Program-made: the position numbers and the translations under genes
Shown here: one piece after another, positions 41,840-50,005 of the stretch
Numbering within the stretch: position 1 is the first letter of the stretch
Layout of the letters: each line of letters opens with the position of its first letter
NCBI RefSeq assembly: GCF_041320705.1
Contig: NZ_JBGGTQ010000001.1
Location: forward strand, 62,001-126,000
Origin: Kineococcus mangrovi
Lineage (GTDB): Bacteria; Actinomycetota; Actinomycetes; Actinomycetales; Kineococcaceae
DNA length: 64,000 nt
Direction: 5' to 3'
The notes under the pieces: generated by a model
Databases searched by the model: none
The model's input: the letters and a program-made list of their open reading frames with translations, nothing else
What the model was told of the DNA's origin: nothing

Positions 41840-43066
41840 TCACCGGGGCCCCAGCAGGGTGGCCGGTCTCACACTCCCGGCACCGAAGCGGGCGCTCGCG
41901 CGGTCCACCGCCCCGTCGGCGTCGCGCCAGCCGTGGGCGCGCTCCCCCAGGACCAGCTGCCGCGGTGCCGTGGCCGAGTCCGCCAACCCCTCGAGCCGGA
42001 CGCCGACGAGCCGCAACCGGGCCCGCTCCAGGGCGAGACCGTCGAACAGGTCGCGCGCGGTGGCGTGGATCTCGCGGGTCACGTCGGTGCGTTCGCGCAG
42101 GGTGCGGGAGCGGGTGATCGTCGTGAAGTCGGCGAACCGGACCTTCAGGACGACCGTCCGCCCGGCCACCCCCTGGGCCCGGGCCCGGGAGGCGGTCCGC
42201 TCGGCCAGGCGCAGCAGCTCGCGGTGCACGAACCGGGGGTCGTCGACGTCCCGGGGGAACGTCTCCTCCGAGCCGATGCTGCGTTCGGGGACCGAGGCGA
42301 CGACACGGCGTTCGTCCCGCCCCCAGGCCAGGGCGTGCAGGTGCCGGCCGGTCGACTCGCCCAGCCCGCGGACCAGCGTGGCGAGGGGGGTGTGCGCGAT
42401 GTCGGCGACCGTGCCCAGCCCGAGCCGCCCCAGCGCCTCGGCGGTGCGCTCCCCGACTCCCCACAACGCCGCGACGGGCAGGGCGTGCAGGAAGGGCACC
42501 GTCTGGGCGTGCGGGACGACCAGCAGCCCGTCGGGCTTGGCCCCGCCGGAGGCCAGCTTGGCGACGAACTTCGTCGAGGCCACCCCCACCGAGCAGGTGA
42601 TGCCCTGCTCGTCGGCGACCCGGTCGCGCAGCAGCTCACCGATCCGGGTGGGGCTGCCGAGCCGGCGGACCGCGCCGGACACGTCGAGGAACGCCTCGTC
42701 GAGGCTGAGCGGTTCGACGACGGGGGTGACCGCGCGGAACACCTCCATGACCCCCGCCGAGATCCGGGAGTAGTCCTCGTGGTGGGGCGCGAGGACGGTC
42801 GCGGCCGGGCACAGCCGCCGGGCGCGGGCCATCGGCATCGCCGCGTGGACGCCGTACCGGCGCGCCTCGTAGGTGGCCGACAGCACCACGCCCCGGTCGC
42901 CCCCGCCGACGATGACGGGGGTGCCGAGCAGGTCGGGCCGGCGGAGCAGTTCGACGGAGGCGTAGAACGCGTCCATGTCGACGTGCAGCACCGTGCACCC
43001 GGTGTCGTCGTCGCCCAGGCCCCCACCGCTCGAGGGGTCCGGGCGCACGAGCTGACGGCGGCTCAC
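41840..43066 (-). CDS. dinB: Y-family DNA polymerase IV
   Basis: 408 aa translesion polymerase. Catalytic residues are in VLHVDMDAFYASVELLRRPD (first Asp) and PLSLDEAFLDVSGA (Asp-Glu). YEARRYGVHAAMPMARARRL and CSVGVASTKFVAKLASGGAKP are the palm/fingers signatures, with an HhH motif (ALWGVGERTAEALGRLG) and a little-finger domain. No beta-clamp peptide is obvious at the C-terminus. Start GTG 43066. No SOS box was found near it, unlike the dnaE2 cassette. Confidence 0.94.
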   Translation of the reverse strand: MSRRQLVRPDPSSGGGLGDDDTGCTVLHVDMDAFYASVELLRRPDLLGTPVIVGGGDRGVVLSATYEARRYGVHAAMPMARARRLCPAATVLAPHHEDYSRISAGVMEVFRAVTPVVEPLSLDEAFLDVSGAVRRLGSPTRIGELLRDRVADEQGITCSVGVASTKFVAKLASGGAKPDGLLVVPHAQTVPFLHALPVAALWGVGERTAEALGRLGLGTVADIAHTPLATLVRGLGESTGRHLHALAWGRDERRVVASVPERSIGSEETFPRDVDDPRFVHRELLRLAERTASRARAQGVAGRTVVLKVRFADFTTITRSRTLRERTDVTREIHATARDLFDGLALERARLRLVGVRLEGLADSATAPRQLVLGERAHGWRDADGAVDRASARFGAGSVRPATLLGPR

Positions 43067-43129: not shown

Positions 43130-43873
43130 TCAGCGGGTGGCGTGCAGGTGCAGGTGCGCGGCCAGGCCGAGCAGTTCCTCGGTGCCCGCGGCGCGCGACT
43201 CCAGCTCGCGCAGCAGGGTGAGGGCGTCGTCGGACTCGGTGACGGCGGAGGGCACGACGTCGCTGAACGTGCGGGTGCCTTCGACCGCGGTGACGGTGAA
43301 ACCGCCCTGCTCGGCGAGCGCCGTGGCGCCGGCCCGGTCGAAGCGCCGGCACAGCGGGTCGCTCGGACCCCAGCGGTGCTCCTCGCCGGACAGGACGTGC
43401 AGGGCCTGCCCGAGCTGACCGGCCAGGACGCGGGCCAGGACGCTGGCCGGCCACTGGGCGACGAGGAGGCTGAGCCGCCCGCCGGGGCGGAGCGTCTCGT
43501 GGGCGGCGCGCAGGGCGGCGGCGGGGTCGTCGACGACCTCCAGGACGCCGTGGCAGAGCAGCACGTCGACGCTGCCGGGGGCCAGGAGGGCGGACAGCTC
43601 GGTCGCGTCCCCCTGCAGCGCGCGGACCCGGTCGGACAGGCCGGCCTCGGCGGTGCGGCGTTCCAGCGCGGCGAGCGCGTCGGGTGAGGGGTCGACGACC
43701 ACGACGCGGTGCCCGAGGGCCGCCACGCGCACCGCGAGGCCACCGGTGCCGCCACCGAGGTCGACGACGGTGAGCTCGGTGGCCCCCAGGTCCGCGCTCG
43801 CTGCGGCGAGCAGGCGCTGGACCCCTTCCCAGAGGACCGTCGACGTGCGGGGGCGGCCCCGTTCCTTCGCCAC
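43130..43873 (-). CDS. Class I SAM-dependent methyltransferase
   Basis: 247 aa. Motif I VVDLGGGTGGLAVRVAALG (about 36-55), VVVVDPSPDALAALERR as motif II, LQGDATELSALL and VDVLLCHGVLEVVDDPAAAL as later motifs, typical of Methyltransf_11/25. GTG 43873 has GGAGG 6 nt upstream and is preferred over a longer frame running through a 12-bp repeat. It lies upstream of dinB on the same strand, as in other actinobacteria; the substrate is unknown. Confidence 0.85.
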   Translation of the reverse strand: MAKERGRPRTSTVLWEGVQRLLAAASADLGATELTVVDLGGGTGGLAVRVAALGHRVVVVDPSPDALAALERRTAEAGLSDRVRALQGDATELSALLAPGSVDVLLCHGVLEVVDDPAAALRAAHETLRPGGRLSLLVAQWPASVLARVLAGQLGQALHVLSGEEHRWGPSDPLCRRFDRAGATALAEQGGFTVTAVEGTRTFSDVVPSAVTESDDALTLLRELESRAAGTEELLGLAAHLHLHATR

Positions 43874-43887
43874 TCGTTCCTCCAGCC

Positions 43888-43935
43888 TCGTGCGGGTCCT
43901 CGTGCGGACCCCCGTGCGGATCCCCGTGCCGGTCG
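43888..43935. repeat. 12-bp degenerate tandem repeat
   Basis: Four units of the form YCGTGCGGNYCC follow one another in the leader of the methyltransferase gene, and similar units decay beyond. The repeat reads as Arg/Thr codons in the frame upstream of the chosen start, which is why that extension was not accepted. Confidence 0.6.
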
Positions 43936-44015
43936 TGGTGCGCCCGGCACTGCGCGCCCCCACCCTAGACACCCCGGCCCGACACGGCCGTGCCCCTGCG
44001 GCCCCACGTCCCCGG

Positions 44016-47000
44016 TCACCTCCCCGAGCTGCCGGAGCTGGAGTGCCAGAGCTTGCGCTCGGGCACGGCGCCGGACGGCGGCGCGGCGGCGCGGGCGAGG
44101 GAGCGGGAGTTGCGGGTGTCCTCCCCCGCCGGTGCGAGGTCGGCGTACGGCGACTGGCGGAAACCGCTGGCGTGCACCAGGATGCGCCGCCGGACCGTCC
44201 CCCCGGCGGCCGGGCCGTGCTCGCGCGGGTGCGTGGGGGGTGCGGCCACGACCGGCCGGCTGGACCGGCTCGCGGCCGCGCCCCGCGTCGCGGCGCGGGA
44301 GTACCCGGGGTCCGGGGCGGCGGCGACGACCGCGTGGACGGCCCCGATCCCTCCGGCCGTCCAGGCGTCCCACAAGGCCGGCAGTTCCCAGGCGCCGGTG
44401 GCCCGCAGCGACACCCCGCGCGGGCCGGTCCGCCGCAGGACGCCCCGCACCACGAGCAGCCAGGAGTGGAACACCGTCGCCGCGTAGGGCCCCTGGGCGT
44501 CCTCGAAGAAGGTGGCGTCCAGGGGGCCGGTGGTGTCGTCGAGGGTGAGGAAGACGACCCGGCGCCCGGATCGGACGGGCGGGGTCTGGGTGGCGACCTT
44601 CACCCCGGCGACGAGGAGTTCCGCGCGGCTGCGCCGGGACCGCAGGTCGCGGGCGGGGGTGACCCGCAGCGCACGCAGCAGCGGGGTGTAGGGGTCGACG
44701 ACGTGGGCGCTGGCGTCCAGGCCCAGGACGTCGAGCTCGGCGCGGACCCGTTCCGGTCCGGTCATCTCGGGCAGCCCGCCGGGCGTGACCTCCTCGGGGG
44801 CGTCGCCGAGGTCCAGGGCCAGCTGCACCGTGCGGGCGGACTCGCCGACGGGCCGTGGCGCCCGGGACTGGGCGGCTGCGGCCGCGCGCACGTCGAGGGT
44901 CCGCGCCTCGAGCGGTCCGCGGACCTGCCGGGCGCCCACCCGGGCCGGGGCGGTCCCGGCGGAGCGGCTCCAGCGGTCCAGTTCGGCGACCTGCAGCAGC
45001 AGGTCCCGCCGGGTGGCCCGGCCACGGCGCGGCACGGCCTCCCGCGCCCGGCCGACGGGGCGCATCCCGTGCAGGGCGTCCAGCGCGCCGGCGAGGACGA
45101 GGCGTTCGGCGGTGGGGCGGGACGGGCGGGCGCGTTGCCACAGGTCGGCCAGCGACCGGTAGGGCTGCCCGGCGACGATCCGCGCCACCTCGGCCCCGGA
45201 GATCCCCTTGACGTCGGTGAGGGACAGGCGGATGCCGAACCCCGTCCCGTCGGCGACCCCGTCGCCGAGCCCGTCGGGGTTGCGCACCCCCCGGCCACCG
45301 AGCCAGGGGTCGAGGTCCGCGACGTCCTCCACGGCGTCGTCGACGGCGTGCGGTGCGGGCGGGTCGACCCGTTCCACCCGGTAGGTGTCGCCGGAGGCGT
45401 TGACGTCCAGGCCGAGCACGGCGATCCCGAGGTTGCGGGCGTCGTCGAGGATCAACCGCTTGGGGTACATGCCGGGGTCGTGGGTGAGGACCCCGGCGAG
45501 GAACGCCGCCGGGTGGTGGGTCTTGAGCCAGGCCGACTGGTAGGTCGGCAGGGCGAAGGCCGCGGCGTGCGCCTTGCAGAAGCCGAAGGAGGCGAACGCC
45601 GTGAGGACGGCCCAGACCCGGTCCACCGTCTCGGCGGGGTAGCCGTGCTCGAGGGCCCGGCGGCGGAACTGCGGCTCCATCTCCTCCTGGCCGCGCCGGG
45701 TGCCGAGGTGGCGCCGGTACTCGTCGGACAGGGCGAGGTCGTGGCCGGTCAAGGCCGCGATGAGCTCGATGACCTGCTCGTGGAACACGACGACACCGCA
45801 GGTGGGTTCGAGGACGTGCCGGAGCCGCTCGTCGAGGTGCTGGGGTGCGGTCCAGCCCTGCCGGGCCTCCAGGAAGGGGGTCACCATGTCCGACTTGACC
45901 GGTCCGGGCCGGAACAGGGAGATGTCGACGACGATGTCGTCGAAGGTGCGCGGCCCGAACTTGCCGACGAGTTCGCGCTGGCCCGGGGACTCGATCTGGA
46001 AGCAGCCGAGGGTCCGGGTGGACCGGATCAGCGTGTAGGTCGCCGGGTCGTCGAGCGGCACCTGGGCCCGGTCGTCGAGGTCGACCTCCGTCTGCTCGAC
46101 CCGGGCGACCTCCCGCACCGCGTACGCCATGGCGGACTGCATCCGGATGCCGAGGACGTCCAGCTTGAGCAGCCCCATGTCCTCGACGTCGTCCTTGTCG
46201 AACTGGCTCACGGGGAAGCCCTTCCAGCTGGCTTCCACCGGGGTGCGGTCCATGAGCGCGGGGTTGGACAGCACGACGCCGCAGGGGTGCAGGGCGACGT
46301 GGCGCGGGAGGCCGTCGAGGCGTTCGACGAGGTCGAAGAACGCGTCGAGGCGCTCCTCGCCCAGCCCGCTGCGCTGCAGCTCGGGCAGTTCGGCGATGGC
46401 GGTGCGTGCGTCGCGGGCCCGCAGGTGCGGGAACGCGGTGGCGATGGCGTCCACCTCCACCGGCGGCAGCCCCAGCGCCGCCCCGACGTCCCGCACGGCG
46501 TGCCGGACCCGGTAGGTGTCCATCATCGACACGCACGTCACGCGGTCGCCGCCGAACCGGTCCAGGACCGCCGCGTAGACGTCCTCGCGCCGGGCCGACT
46601 CGACGTCGAGGTCGATGTCGGGCAGCTGCCCGCGCCGCGGGTTGAGGAACCGTTCCATGAGCAGCCGGTGCCCGAGGGGTTCGACGTCGGAGATGCCCAG
46701 CAGGTGGTTGACGAGGCTGCCCGCCCCCGAGCCGCGCGCGGCGACCCGGACGCGCATCTCGCGGGTGAGGTCGCAGACGTCGGCGACGGTGAGGAAGTAG
46801 CCGGCGAACCCGACCCGGTCGATGGTCTCGAGCTCGTCCTCCAGGCGGCGCAGGACCCTCGCCTCGAGCGCGGGGTCCGCCCCCGGGTACCGGCGGCCGA
46901 TCCCGCCCTCGCAGCGGGCGCGCAGGACCGCGCCCTGGTCCGCGCCCGGTCCCAGCCCGAGCGCCGCGGCGTCGGGCAGGTGGTGCCGGCCGATGCCGAG

Positions 47001-48008
47001 GTCGGCGGCCGGGTCCTGCACGGCCCGCGCGGCGAGGGCCGCGGTCGTGGCCAGCAGGTCCGCGGCCGCGGACGGGTCACCGGCGGCGCGGGCGACGTCG
47101 GCCGCGGTGCGGGCCATGTCGACCGTGGGCAGGAGGTGACCCTGTCCGCTGACCCGGTCGGTGTACCGGGTGTCGAGCGGGACCAGGCGACGGACCGCGT
47201 CGAGCAGGTCGGCCGTGGGTCCGCCGTCCGCACCGGCCGACCGGGCGGCGGCCGTCAGGACGGCCGGAACCCCTGCGGCACGGGCGAAGGAGAGCATCCG
47301 GGCGGCGTGCTCGACGCTGCCGGCCGTTCCCGGCGGGGCGTGGTGGCAGACCACCTCGACGTGCAGGGAACCGGCCGGCAGCACGTCGCGCCAGCGCCGC
47401 AGGACCGCGTGGGCGAGGTCGTCCCGGCGGGCCAGCAGCGCCCGGCCCAGTTCGGAGCCCGGCCCCAGCAGGACCGCCAGCGCCGCCCGGGCCCCGGTGC
47501 CGCCGGCCCGGGCGGTGGCGTGGCCGGCGACGAGTTCGAGGCTGCTGACGGGAACGCCGCGCACCCCGTCGAGGTGGGTGGCGCTCACCAGCCGGCACAA
47601 CGCCGCCCACCCCCGTCCCGCACCGGCGTCCTCGGCCCCGAGGGCCAGGACGGTGACGCGGGGGAACCGGAGGTCCACCACGGCCCCGCCCCGGGCCGGG
47701 GTGCGGGACGAGCTGCGCCGCAGCGCGACCGAGGGGTCGGCCCAGGCGGGCAGACCGTCGGCCAGGCCGGTCGGGGAGGTCGCCAGGTCGACCCCGAGCA
47801 CAGGGGCCAGACCGGCTTCGCCGCAGGCCCGGACGAACTTCACCGCGCCGTACAGGCCGTCGCGGTCGGTCAGGGCCAGGACCGGCATCCCGAGGTCGGC
47901 GGCGCGGGCGACGAGGGCGGAGGGGGTGGAGGTGCCGTACCGCAGGGAGTAGCCGGAGGCGACGTGCAGGTGCGGGAACGGGTCCACGGGTGGTGCGGCG
48001 GTGGTCAT
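44016..48008 (-). CDS. dnaE2: Error-prone DNA polymerase III alpha subunit DnaE2
   Basis: 1330 aa, longer than the usual ~1100, with Ala/Gly-rich insertions in the N-terminal third. Polymerase Asp residues are in LPDIDLDVESARREDVYAA and LLKLDVLGIRMQSAMAYAV. The C-terminus has the OB fold (LLVAGVKVATQTPPVRSG) and the DnaE2 tail VLVHASGFRQSPYADL / RKLWHSSSGSSGR. The PHP domain is degenerate: HLHVASGYS replaces the HVH motif and ALTDRDGLYG has Arg for the usual His of TDHDG. DnaE2 performs SOS mutagenesis in actinobacteria. ATG 48008 follows GAAGGA. It is last in a LexA-controlled cassette. Confidence 0.94.
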   Translation of the reverse strand: MTTAAPPVDPFPHLHVASGYSLRYGTSTPSALVARAADLGMPVLALTDRDGLYGAVKFVRACGEAGLAPVLGVDLATSPTGLADGLPAWADPSVALRRSSSRTPARGGAVVDLRFPRVTVLALGAEDAGAGRGWAALCRLVSATHLDGVRGVPVSSLELVAGHATARAGGTGARAALAVLLGPGSELGRALLARRDDLAHAVLRRWRDVLPAGSLHVEVVCHHAPPGTAGSVEHAARMLSFARAAGVPAVLTAAARSAGADGGPTADLLDAVRRLVPLDTRYTDRVSGQGHLLPTVDMARTAADVARAAGDPSAAADLLATTAALAARAVQDPAADLGIGRHHLPDAAALGLGPGADQGAVLRARCEGGIGRRYPGADPALEARVLRRLEDELETIDRVGFAGYFLTVADVCDLTREMRVRVAARGSGAGSLVNHLLGISDVEPLGHRLLMERFLNPRRGQLPDIDLDVESARREDVYAAVLDRFGGDRVTCVSMMDTYRVRHAVRDVGAALGLPPVEVDAIATAFPHLRARDARTAIAELPELQRSGLGEERLDAFFDLVERLDGLPRHVALHPCGVVLSNPALMDRTPVEASWKGFPVSQFDKDDVEDMGLLKLDVLGIRMQSAMAYAVREVARVEQTEVDLDDRAQVPLDDPATYTLIRSTRTLGCFQIESPGQRELVGKFGPRTFDDIVVDISLFRPGPVKSDMVTPFLEARQGWTAPQHLDERLRHVLEPTCGVVVFHEQVIELIAALTGHDLALSDEYRRHLGTRRGQEEMEPQFRRRALEHGYPAETVDRVWAVLTAFASFGFCKAHAAAFALPTYQSAWLKTHHPAAFLAGVLTHDPGMYPKRLILDDARNLGIAVLGLDVNASGDTYRVERVDPPAPHAVDDAVEDVADLDPWLGGRGVRNPDGLGDGVADGTGFGIRLSLTDVKGISGAEVARIVAGQPYRSLADLWQRARPSRPTAERLVLAGALDALHGMRPVGRAREAVPRRGRATRRDLLLQVAELDRWSRSAGTAPARVGARQVRGPLEARTLDVRAAAAAQSRAPRPVGESARTVQLALDLGDAPEEVTPGGLPEMTGPERVRAELDVLGLDASAHVVDPYTPLLRALRVTPARDLRSRRSRAELLVAGVKVATQTPPVRSGRRVVFLTLDDTTGPLDATFFEDAQGPYAATVFHSWLLVVRGVLRRTGPRGVSLRATGAWELPALWDAWTAGGIGAVHAVVAAAPDPGYSRAATRGAAASRSSRPVVAAPPTHPREHGPAAGGTVRRRILVHASGFRQSPYADLAPAGEDTRNSRSLARAAAPPSGAVPERKLWHSSSGSSGR

Positions 48009-48119: not shown

Positions 48120-48557
48120 TCAGCCGGCGAGCGGCTGGAGGGCGCTGAGCCCGAGCTGGACCTCCACGACGCGGTGGAACCGCTCGGCGTGGGCGAGGAG
48201 GTCGTCGGCGGCCGCGGCGTCCACGAGCCCCGTGCGGCCGGCCTCGACCGCCGACCGGGTGGCGGCGGTCGCGGCGAACCGGTCGGACCACTCCTGCAGG
48301 CTCGGGTCCAGGGCGGGCAGCATCTCCCAGACGCTGCGGGGGCCGCCGCTGCGCCGACCGCGAGCGGGACGGCCGTGCACCGCGACGATCGCGGCCCCGG
48401 CCCGCAGGGCCGCCAGGTGGGCGTGGACGTAGCGCTCGGCCACGTCGTCCGTGCGCAACGCCGTGAGCAGGTCGTCCTCGCACCGGGCGAGGAGGTCCAG
48501 GGCGGCCGTCGTCAGCGGGCGCGGGACGCCCGCAGGGACGTCGAAGGTGGTGCGCAT
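48120..48557 (-). CDS. SAV_6107-type HEPN-domain protein
   Basis: 145 aa, all-helical. TALRTDDVAERYVHAHLAAL and the following RAGAAIVAVHGRPARGRRSG, then VWEMLPALDPSLQEWSDRFA, match the small HEPN-superfamily proteins of the SAV_6107 type found next to dnaE2 in actinobacteria. HEPN proteins often bind nucleotides or cut RNA through Rx4-6H; here RYVHAH could supply such a motif, but this is unproven. ATG 48557 has GGAGGAG 8 nt upstream; GTG 48560 is alternative. Lies 52 nt after the DUF6504 gene and 111 nt before dnaE2, so probably in the same transcript. Confidence 0.82.
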   Translation of the reverse strand: MRTTFDVPAGVPRPLTTAALDLLARCEDDLLTALRTDDVAERYVHAHLAALRAGAAIVAVHGRPARGRRSGGPRSVWEMLPALDPSLQEWSDRFAATAATRSAVEAGRTGLVDAAAADDLLAHAERFHRVVEVQLGLSALQPLAG

Positions 48558-48608
48558 CACGTTCTCCTCCGGTCGTGCGGTCAGGTCGGCAGGTCCGTCG
48601 GCGGCAGT

Positions 48609-49028
48609 TCAGTCGCTGACGCGCAGCAACTGCCAGTCCCCCGACGCTCCGGACGTAGAGGTACCAGCGACCTCCGACACGGCCGCCGTTCCCGGGCCGA
48701 CGGCGCGGGCGAGGTCGTAGACCCCGGCCCCGCCGGCCCGGCCGGCGCTGGCTTCGACGCGCAGGACCTCCCGCTCGAGATCGCCGATCTCGAGCACGCG
48801 GCGGCGGACGGGACGGCCGCCGGCCCCGGTCTCGTCGGCGGCGTCGCCGTGGACGGCGGCCACTGCTCCGTGCTCCCACCAGGCGCTGCGCTCGCGCCAC
48901 CGGGAGAGCACCTCGCGGACGACGTAGAGCCGCCCGCGCCAGATGAACTGCGCGGGGGTCTCCCGACCCTCGTCCGCGTCGTCGTAGCGGACGTGCACCT
49001 CGTCGGAGAACCGTCGCACCGTCCTCAC
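48609..49028 (-). CDS. DUF6504 family protein
   Basis: 139 aa. RRFSDEVHVRYDDADEGRET with FIWRGRLYVVREVLSRWRER and WWEHG is the DUF6504 core, a small beta-rich protein. The C-terminal half (VLRVEASAGRAGGAGVYDLA ... DWQLLRVSD) resembles the end of the same family. Known only as a neighbour of dnaE2/imuB genes in actinobacteria; no biochemical role. The start is taken as GTG 49028 (GTG 49019 possible). A longer frame to 49190 would run through the LexA box and is rejected. Confidence 0.82.
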   Translation of the reverse strand: MRTVRRFSDEVHVRYDDADEGRETPAQFIWRGRLYVVREVLSRWRERSAWWEHGAVAAVHGDAADETGAGGRPVRRRVLEIGDLEREVLRVEASAGRAGGAGVYDLARAVGPGTAAVSEVAGTSTSGASGDWQLLRVSD

Positions 49029-49168
49029 CCCGTCCCCTCTCGAGCCGGCACCGCGGCGGATCGCGCGGTGCGGCGAGCCGGGGGAAGCGGCCCGCGAGCA
49101 CGCACTCGGGGCGCGGCCCGCGGGGCTTCCCCTCCCCCCGGACCGCGCCTCGAGCGGTCTCATCGTGT

Positions 49169-49184
49169 TCGAACACCGGTTCGA
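49169..49184 (-). promoter_or_regulatory. LexA (SOS) box
   Basis: TCGAACACCGGTTCGA is a perfect 16-bp palindrome-with-spacer matching the actinobacterial SOS consensus TCGAAC-N4-GTTCGA. It lies 141 bp upstream of the DUF6504 start and should repress DUF6504-HEPN-dnaE2. It could also affect the divergent gene at 49376. Confidence 0.9.
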
Positions 49185-49237
49185 ACACACCTCGAAGCTA
49201 CACCACCGACCTCAGGACGCGTCAACGCTGGACCACG

Positions 49238-49246
49238 TTGTCCACA
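49238..49246 (+). promoter_or_regulatory. DnaA box 1
   Basis: TTGTCCACA matches the actinobacterial high-affinity DnaA box exactly. It lies in the gap between the SOS box and the lipoprotein gene. Confidence 0.7.
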
Positions 49247-49314
49247 AGACGCAGCGTCGAGCGCCGGCGACTGACGGTGATCGGCCGGGAAGGGTCACCC
49301 GGACGGCCCAGCAC

Positions 49315-49323
49315 TTGTCCACA
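49315..49323 (+). promoter_or_regulatory. DnaA box 2
   Basis: A second exact TTGTCCACA in the same orientation, 77 bp from the first and about 52 bp before the GTG of the lipoprotein gene. Confidence 0.7.
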
Positions 49324-49375
49324 GCGCTCCCTCCGACGCCCCGGCACGTCCCCGGGACGTGCGACCGTGCCACGC

Positions 49376-50005
49376 GTGACCCCCGCTCGCCCCCTCGTCG
49401 CGACCGCCGCCGGAACCGTCCTCCTGGGCCTGCTCGCGGCGTGCTCGCACGGGCAGCCGCCGGTTCCGGCACCGGCCGCACCGGCACCCACCGCGACGGT
49501 CGCCGTGACGCCTCAGCCCGAGCACGCCGCAGAGGCACCCGAGGTGTCGGACAGCCAGACCCTCCCAGTAACGGCATCGCAAATTTCAACACCCGCGCAA
49601 GATGACCGCGCCAAGGTTCAGGACGAAACTGGCGCCAGTCTCTTCGCCGCCTATTTCCTGCAAACTCTCAACTACGCCCGAGCGACAGGAGATTCGTCGC
49701 CACTGCGCTCAATCTCGGTCGAGTCGTGCACCGGATGCGAGTTCTACGCGGATGTCATCGACGAGTACCACGAGAGGGGATACACAACACCGCAGTTCGT
49801 ACTGCAGTTCACTGGCACGGACATCGACGCGTGGGATGCAACCGCCGGCTACGCCAGACTCACAGTCCTCGTCGATCGACCGGCCTACAACACACTTGAC
49901 CGTAACGGCTCAATTATCAGCTCTGACGGAGCTGCTCCTGACTCCAAGTTCTGGATAGAAGTTACCTGGCGGCAAGAACAATGGATGGCACTGGAGGTTG
50001 AGTAA
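49376..50005 (+). CDS. DUF6318 lipoprotein
   Basis: 209 aa. Lipoprotein signal (ARPLVATAAGTVLLGLLAAC, Cys about residue 24), a Pro/Ala/Thr linker (to about 65), then a globular domain with TGASLFAAYFLQTLNYARAT, SVESCTGCEFYADVIDEY (CxxC) and WIEVTWRQEQW. This matches the actinobacterial DUF6318 family, which resembles a cystatin/NTF2-like extracytoplasmic domain; function unknown. Start GTG 49376. From about 49565 the coding sequence is visibly AT-richer with unusual codons, unlike the signal-peptide part. It precedes the PKD gene by 1 nt. Confidence 0.78.
   Translation: MTPARPLVATAAGTVLLGLLAACSHGQPPVPAPAAPAPTATVAVTPQPEHAAEAPEVSDSQTLPVTASQISTPAQDDRAKVQDETGASLFAAYFLQTLNYARATGDSSPLRSISVESCTGCEFYADVIDEYHERGYTTPQFVLQFTGTDIDAWDATAGYARLTVLVDRPAYNTLDRNGSIISSDGAAPDSKFWIEVTWRQEQWMALEVE

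Follow-up and report, generated by a model that had tools for sequence, protein, structure and literature searches.

The interval at positions 49029-49375 of the window (the whole analysed stretch of 64,000 nucleotides, from a Kineococcus mangrovi genome available as a 4.36 Mb draft in 23 contigs) is a control region between a minus-strand polymerase operon and a divergent plus-strand gene for a DUF6318 lipoprotein (Table 1). A preliminary description of this DNA had the interval separate a mutagenic polymerase cassette from an 'AT-rich' lipoprotein gene; the gene matches on both sides agree with that arrangement, the lipoprotein gene being merely lower in GC content (63%, compared with 75% for the window). 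In the order DUF6504 - HEPN_SAV_6107 - DnaE2-type polymerase - methyltransferase - DinB, the genes most likely form a damage-inducible error-prone polymerase operon. The C-family polymerase is termed DnaE2-type because of this operon context, since its NCBIfam scores for the error-prone model (582.7 bits) and the PolIII alpha model (579.7 bits) are near-equal and both lie under the cut-offs. ImuA and ImuB, of the ImuA-ImuB-DnaE2 mutasome, were absent among the five operon proteins scanned. A search for a solved structure resembling DUF6504 gave a best chain at E 0.25, which lends no support to any assignment. In the control genome of Caulobacter vibrioides, DUF6504 scored over the cut-off, perhaps within a longer polymerase-cassette protein.

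Table 1. Genes and regulatory features at the polymerase locus (window coordinates)
Feature	Position	Strand	Basis or remark
Y-family DNA polymerase IV (DinB)	41840..43066	-	profile search
SAM-dependent methyltransferase	43130..43972	-	profile search
C-family DNA polymerase, probably error-prone DnaE2	44016..48008	-	profile search and context
HEPN_SAV_6107 protein, operon gene 2	48120..48560	-	PF18726, 1.8e-30
DUF6504 protein, operon gene 1	48609..49028	-	PF20114, 8.5e-18 (scanned as longer frame 48609-49190)
Leader RNA core (P3 + P4)	49074..49154	-	single copy in genome; own sequence part of Kineococcus model R2
Hairpin P4, loop CTTCCCC at 49081-49087, complementary to P3 loop	49074..49094	-	comparative
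Hairpin P3, loop AGGGGAAG at 49126-49133	49110..49149	-	comparative
LexA (SOS) box TCGAACACCGGTTCGA, perfect palindrome TCGAAC-N4-GTTCGA	49169..49184	-	sequence
-10 hexamer TAGCTT, putative operon promoter	49195..49200	-	TAGCTT in 8/9 genus loci, TACCTT in 1/9
-35 hexamer TTGACG, putative operon promoter	49220..49225	-	invariant in 9/9 genus loci
Proximal candidate DnaA box TTGTCCACA	49238..49246	+	exact match; 12 nt upstream of -35 hexamer
Distal candidate DnaA box TTGTCCACA	49315..49323	+	exact match; 43 nt before lipoprotein GTG at 49367
Divergent DUF6318 lipoprotein gene, GTG at 49367	49367..50005	+	PF19843, 1e-14

The one perfect SOS box that had been described in the interval is present, and is, of the five perfect LexA boxes in the window genome, the one that precedes the polymerase operon. 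A box fitting the strict pattern is found at all nine genus loci with DUF6504, and 78 of 96 loci have the exact core ahead of DUF6504; near-duplicates remain in that set (for example L090/L015, L096/L045 and L127/L043), and some members hold too little upstream DNA for a promoter to show. At the level of the order, 47 genomes have DUF6504, and loci were obtained from 30 of them. The position of this palindromic box before a repair operon, together with its wide conservation, points to a LexA (SOS) regulon promoter, the presumed -35 and -10 hexamers of which are spaced by 19 nt, or by 18 nt if the -10 element is read as GTAGCT.

Alignment of the genus loci revealed a long, strongly conserved stretch between the LexA box and the start codon, which the preliminary description had missed in its account of the interval. 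Its core comprises two hairpins, the long P3 (loop GGGGAAG) and, after it, the short P4 (loop CUUCCCC), with 7-nt loops complementary to each other. In an alignment of 33 sequences from across the Actinomycetes (A5), which was fitted to its own covariance model and includes one Kineococcus sequence (g1), both-sided, compensatory changes occur in 16 of the 17 P3 pairs, and 96.1% of all cells are paired, compared with 43-55% when partners are slid; none of 500 shuffles was as good on any of five measures. The input to A5 consisted of 36 chosen loci, with Kineococcus represented by L010, L015 and L016 only and with L145, L151, L161, L165 and L167 left aside; L015, L016 and L148 fell out during fitting, and L169 entered without its P4, its longer linker having left gaps. 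Among the 12 model-building sequences, examined without fitting, 94.0% of cells pair and eight P3 pairs change on both sides. G-U or U-G cells number 50 compared with eight A-C or C-A cells, which identifies the operon-strand RNA as the structured strand. With Kineococcus sequences alone, between 3 and 94 of 500 shuffles were as good, depending on the measure, these sequences being too uniform for proof of a stem. From these covarying helices, and from a fixed place before one operon type, the element is most likely a cis-acting structured leader RNA.

Pairing between the P3 and P4 loops as a kissing interaction is plausible. Every counted cell of the seven loop-loop pairs is complementary, but the pairs are nearly invariant, so that covariation is no proof of them, and a P3-like hairpin with loop GGGGAAG and no CTTCC downstream at six loci (L029, L034, L035, L039, L049 and L094) weighs against the interaction. 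RNAalifold, applied to a plain MAFFT alignment that misplaces gaps between groups (A2; 32 of 34 listed loci, L148 and L150 being left out), returned only a direct helix between the two 7-mers; a further alignment, A3, held 12 of those 34 loci. That the conserved stretch is a palindrome at the level of DNA, or a coding sequence, instead of an RNA structure is very improbable: the inverted 7-mers GGGGAAG and CTTCCCC are perfect in DNA as well and an open frame runs through the leader in the window genome, but one-base indels break this frame between species, for which reason a coding function was rejected, and the bias towards G-U cells and the compensatory changes need an RNA of the operon strand. 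Identity with a known Rfam RNA was likewise discarded, as no match covers the leader; no gathering-level match was obtained at 20 loci, and the only match in the window stretch was isrG at 48659-48723, outside the leader, which scored 9.6 bits where the cut-off is 100. Between the end of P4 and the DUF6504 GTG at 49028 there are 45 nt, and no T-run was seen by eye after the hairpin, so that intrinsic termination or direct masking of the ribosome site does not offer the simple explanation; the favoured one is a folded 5' element, which would bind a partner or shield the mRNA.

The leader is also present in G011, which represents the second genus of the family, and can be recognised in other families and in named records from Frankiales, Kineosporia and other actinobacteria. 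Twelve sequences from outside Kineococcus served to build a covariance model which, used without reference to neighbouring genes, matched 12 loci in 394 genomes of the class, one per genome; none of these holds a model-building sequence, although L165 repeats L138, a locus already known and not in the model. In every one of the 12, the match stands between a LexA box on its upstream side and DUF6504 or HEPN_SAV_6107 on its downstream side, the box being exact in ten and AGAACGAGTGTTCGA in L161 and L167. These two loci could be taken for false matches, as they lack both the strict LexA pattern and the CTTCCCC loop; this was rejected, since they possess AGAACGAGTGTTCGA and a HEPN_SAV_6107 gene, and their P4 loop, CTTCCTC, still pairs by wobble. 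In L159, L164 and L169, where no DUF6504 was recognised by motif, HEPN_SAV_6107 directly follows the leader, which therefore goes with the operon and not with DUF6504 as such. The corresponding scan of the phylum matched one of 396 genomes (G239), already among the 12 class matches; the stricter filters of the class and phylum scans lose weak matches, the window's own genome being among the misses. On the window itself the non-Kineococcus model ranks the leader first of 64 kb, weakly (18.3 bits, E 0.26), and on 90 loci it gave 31 matches at E 0.1, three of them antisense (L109, L123 and L129), a threshold reached by three of the nine Kineococcus loci, with the other six and L145 falling short. 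A Kineococcus model, which contains the window's own sequence, finds one copy in each of the nine genus genomes with DUF6504 and no leader in the two without.

Across the 96 DUF6504 loci, 37 have P3/P4, 18 have a CUCGACC motif only and 41 have neither, from which it follows that the leader is not obligatory. The CUCGACC motif belongs to the loop of a second module, P2, a hairpin upstream of P3/P4 with a stem of varying sequence, which accompanies P3/P4 at about as many loci as those 18 where it occurs without them; 35 distinct hairpins were obtained from 45 loci, several with only 1-4 contiguous pairs, and a few of the motif matches look like chance (for example L016 and L133). Kineococcus has kept P3/P4 and has no P2. 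No report of the leader appears among the literature matches listed; a survey of 224 candidate structured RNAs may hold prior notice of it.

The candidate DnaA boxes are present as originally described, as two exact copies of TTGTCCACA in the same orientation, 77 bp apart. TTGTCCACA is a listed high-affinity DnaA box of Mycobacterium tuberculosis and Streptomyces coelicolor, according to a passage in one report (PMC4285127). These are the only copies in the 64-kb window, where 0.08 would be expected, and at least two copies arose in 2 of 100 shuffles. The argument that an exact 9-mer of this kind should be rare in a GC-rich genome had to be dropped: the 4.36 Mb genome holds seven exact copies compared with four of the reversed pattern, near the approximately 5.3 expected from the base composition of the window. 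All seven copies read as intergenic (two here, one in the dnaA-dnaN gap and four others, with the neighbouring start codon inferred at C1:636825 and C8:27654), so that the claim that two copies so close are unlikely to be chance keeps its force as regards clustering and intergenic place and loses it as regards number, which is ordinary for the genome. The 11 genus genomes together contain 102 exact copies compared with 47 of the reversed pattern. By eye, the oriC of the window genome holds GC-richer box variants such as CCGTCCACA, and no box-like 9-mer adjoins either of the two boxes at the locus. A general DnaA-LexA pairing in the genome was considered and rejected: TT[A/G]TCCACA occurs in the 3-kb piece around one of the five perfect LexA boxes, this one, and no LexA box occurs in the 3-kb pieces around the other five exact DnaA sites.

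DUF6504 is found in nine of the 11 genus genomes, the window genome (G000) included, and at least one exact TTGTCCACA is in place in six of the eight relatives with the locus (seven of nine genus loci counting its own), so that the outcome under which neither box would be kept in close relatives did not materialise. Both boxes are exact in one of the eight (G001), as in G000. The proximal box is exact in G002 and G005, with TTATCCACA and CTGTCCACA, respectively, at the distal site; the distal box is exact in G004 and G009, with CCGTCCACA and, as read from the alignment, TCATCCACA at the proximal site. G010 has the distal box only, G008 only a proximal CCGTCCACA, and G006 neither. In G002 the distal site has changed to TTATCCACA, the DnaA box of the E. 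coli type, as would be expected if the site is one for DnaA. The distance from the LexA box to the proximal site is 61-62 bp in the seven genomes where this is readable, and the spacing between boxes is 77 bp in G000 and G002, 78 bp in G004, 87 bp in G005 and 88 bp in G001, classes that differ by one helical turn and suggest binding to the same face of the DNA, on the strength of five genomes only. Among the 9-column upstream windows in the seven genomes with a lipoprotein neighbour, the distal box ranks first in conservation (identity 0.94-0.97, compared with a mean of 0.51), and the proximal box is averagely conserved (0.66, rank 108 of 232). A conserved block between the two boxes in the same genomes (GGCCGTYCGGGTGAC, 49270-49310) is possibly part of the lipoprotein promoter. 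Beyond the genus, TT[A/G]TCCACA was not found before DUF6504 in G011 or at 23 loci from other families of the order (L028-L050), and in 67 of 68 named loci it was not found in the 450 nt upstream of DUF6504, the exception being K. vitellinus, of the same genus.

A role for DnaA in coupling replication state to SOS mutagenesis, as originally suggested, gains from the box retained in six of eight relatives, from the TTATCCACA substitution and from the constant distance of the proximal site to the LexA box; it loses from the single relative with both boxes exact, the lack of sites at the loci scanned outside the genus, the average conservation of the proximal box, the single pairing among five LexA boxes and the tendency of exact boxes to track the lipoprotein gene no less than the polymerase operon. 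DUF6318 adjoins the operon in G000, G001, G002, G004, G005, G009 and G010 and not in G006 or G008, and exact boxes are found in all seven genomes with this neighbour and in neither of the two without, so that exact boxes go with the shared intergenic region. The boxes could accordingly serve the DUF6318 gene, DnaA controlling an envelope lipoprotein and the nearness of LexA being incidental, a reading given somewhat less than an even chance. It is consistent with the distal box, which lies approximately 34-55 bp (by arithmetic) from the lipoprotein start across genomes, is the best conserved upstream window and stands beside GGCCGTYCGGGTGAC; against it, the spacing of the proximal site from the LexA box and the -35 element is constant, the weak copy CCGTCCACA stays in G008, where the neighbour is not the lipoprotein, and the DUF6318 relatives of G006 and G008, which may be paralogues, lie on contigs without an exact box. 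G006 and G008 are also the most divergent genomes, so that the effect of the neighbour is confounded with descent. Each box may serve the promoter closer to it, or the two may act jointly.

Clusters of DnaA boxes, such as E. coli datA and those of B. subtilis, act as DnaA titration or reservoir sites. A similar function for the present boxes, also raised in the preliminary description, has in its favour that two exact boxes stand together in a genome with seven in all, and is nevertheless disfavoured as highly improbable: there are two boxes and not many, the locus lies 1.77 Mb (G001), 1.45 Mb (G004) and 2.12 Mb (G009) from dnaA in three relatives and so is not near oriC, and the proximal site is phased to a promoter. 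A chance cluster of two 9-mers without function is unlikely, if less so than titration. The genome count near expectation (seven compared with four reversed, or approximately five by composition), the average conservation of the proximal box and the two of nine genus loci without an exact box are as chance would have them, but the intergenic place of every copy, the rank of the distal box as the most conserved upstream window and the recurrence at oriC of substituted forms such as CCGTCCACA are not. E. coli DnaA is described, in a passage of one study, as preferring boxes 2-3 bp apart (PMC11317965); the 77 bp found here is a mark against strong binding at lone boxes.

Error-prone polymerases, through induced mutagenesis, help bacteria to adapt, and the switch for this is commonly taken to be LexA. 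At the present locus, a scheme is considered moderately probable in which transcription of the polymerase operon is gated by LexA, its mRNA is tuned by the leader, and DnaA adds a modulation specific to the genus. Bound at 49169-49184, across the presumed transcription start behind TTGACG/TAGCTT, LexA would keep the operon silent until damage removes it, as the position and wide conservation of the box suggest. The transcript would begin with the leader, in which P3 and P4 would fold and the 7-nt loops could kiss; with its stems shown by comparison, the leader would act in cis in setting how much of the mRNA persists or is translated. It would most likely do so as a binding site for a protein or small molecule, or as a shield for the 5' end. 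In the weakest step, which concerns Kineococcus alone, DnaA could bind the boxes, whose centres lie at approximately -54 and -131 relative to the presumed start, and through these sites, shared with the lipoprotein gene, might modulate the operon promoter or the lipoprotein gene with replication state. A broader proposal is considered possible and short of probable: an undescribed leader family, consisting of the CUCGACC-loop hairpin and the kissing hairpins, singly or together, could form a second SOS gate in many Actinomycetes. The RNA would respond to a signal or protein, and polymerases would be made only if LexA and the RNA both allow, with DnaA in Kineococcus as a third, replication-linked input.

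With a conserved RNA between a LexA promoter and the first gene, control would reach the step that leads from derepression to the polymerase, and the leader, a stronger finding than the DnaA boxes, suggests that mutation under stress is controlled at an additional level. Should the DnaA boxes be bound, the co-control by DnaA and LexA seen in E. coli would have a counterpart in a distant phylum, at an error-prone polymerase operon. In E. coli, passages of two reports describe joint repression of uvrB, recN and dinJ by DnaA and LexA (PMC6015884, PMC8203912). As at the present locus, LexA and DnaA sites share the promoter region of an SOS gene at uvrB; there, according to the former, DnaA represses and one DnaA box overlaps the LexA box (PMC6015884), whereas here the operon is one for polymerases, and its candidate boxes stand upstream of the -35 element, with 61-62 bp between the LexA box and the nearer one. 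The dnaE2-dinP genes of Streptomyces venezuelae are under LexA control, as stated in passages of one report (PMC9380542), and resemble the present operon in their LexA-repressed DnaE2 and DinB-type polymerases; the text passages of that report contain no leader RNA and its text lacks the word DnaA (PMC9380542), whereas here DUF6504 and HEPN_SAV_6107 precede the polymerase. Riboswitches and protein-binding leaders among the Rfam cis-regulatory families likewise place covarying hairpins between the promoter and start codon of one operon type; the present leader differs in having no Rfam match and in belonging to an SOS polymerase operon. Operon gene 2 is a member of the HEPN-M SAV_6107 family, for which part of one survey tabulates the catalytic motif as not conserved (PMC3710099), so that cleavage of the leader by this protein should not be taken for granted.

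Other elements accompany the SOS promoter, or the DnaA-box sequence, elsewhere. A loose TGTCNG + TA-N-T element, which resembles the PafBC/RecA-NDp promoter, precedes the LexA box in 42 of 96 loci (including L030, L033, L036, L037, L045, L111, L114 and L130), a count made without a chance control, and in none of the nine Kineococcus loci; the DnaA boxes may have replaced a different input in Kineococcus. In the K. xinjiangensis-like genome G011 (L021), a 73-bp repeat in four tandem copies lies directly upstream of the SOS promoter. A further exact DnaA box of the window genome (C1:178744, L003) lies between genes named by eye as kinase-like and FAD-oxidoreductase-like, and may be conserved, as G001, G002, G004 and G009 each have an exact box about as far (67-74 kb) from the polymerase locus.
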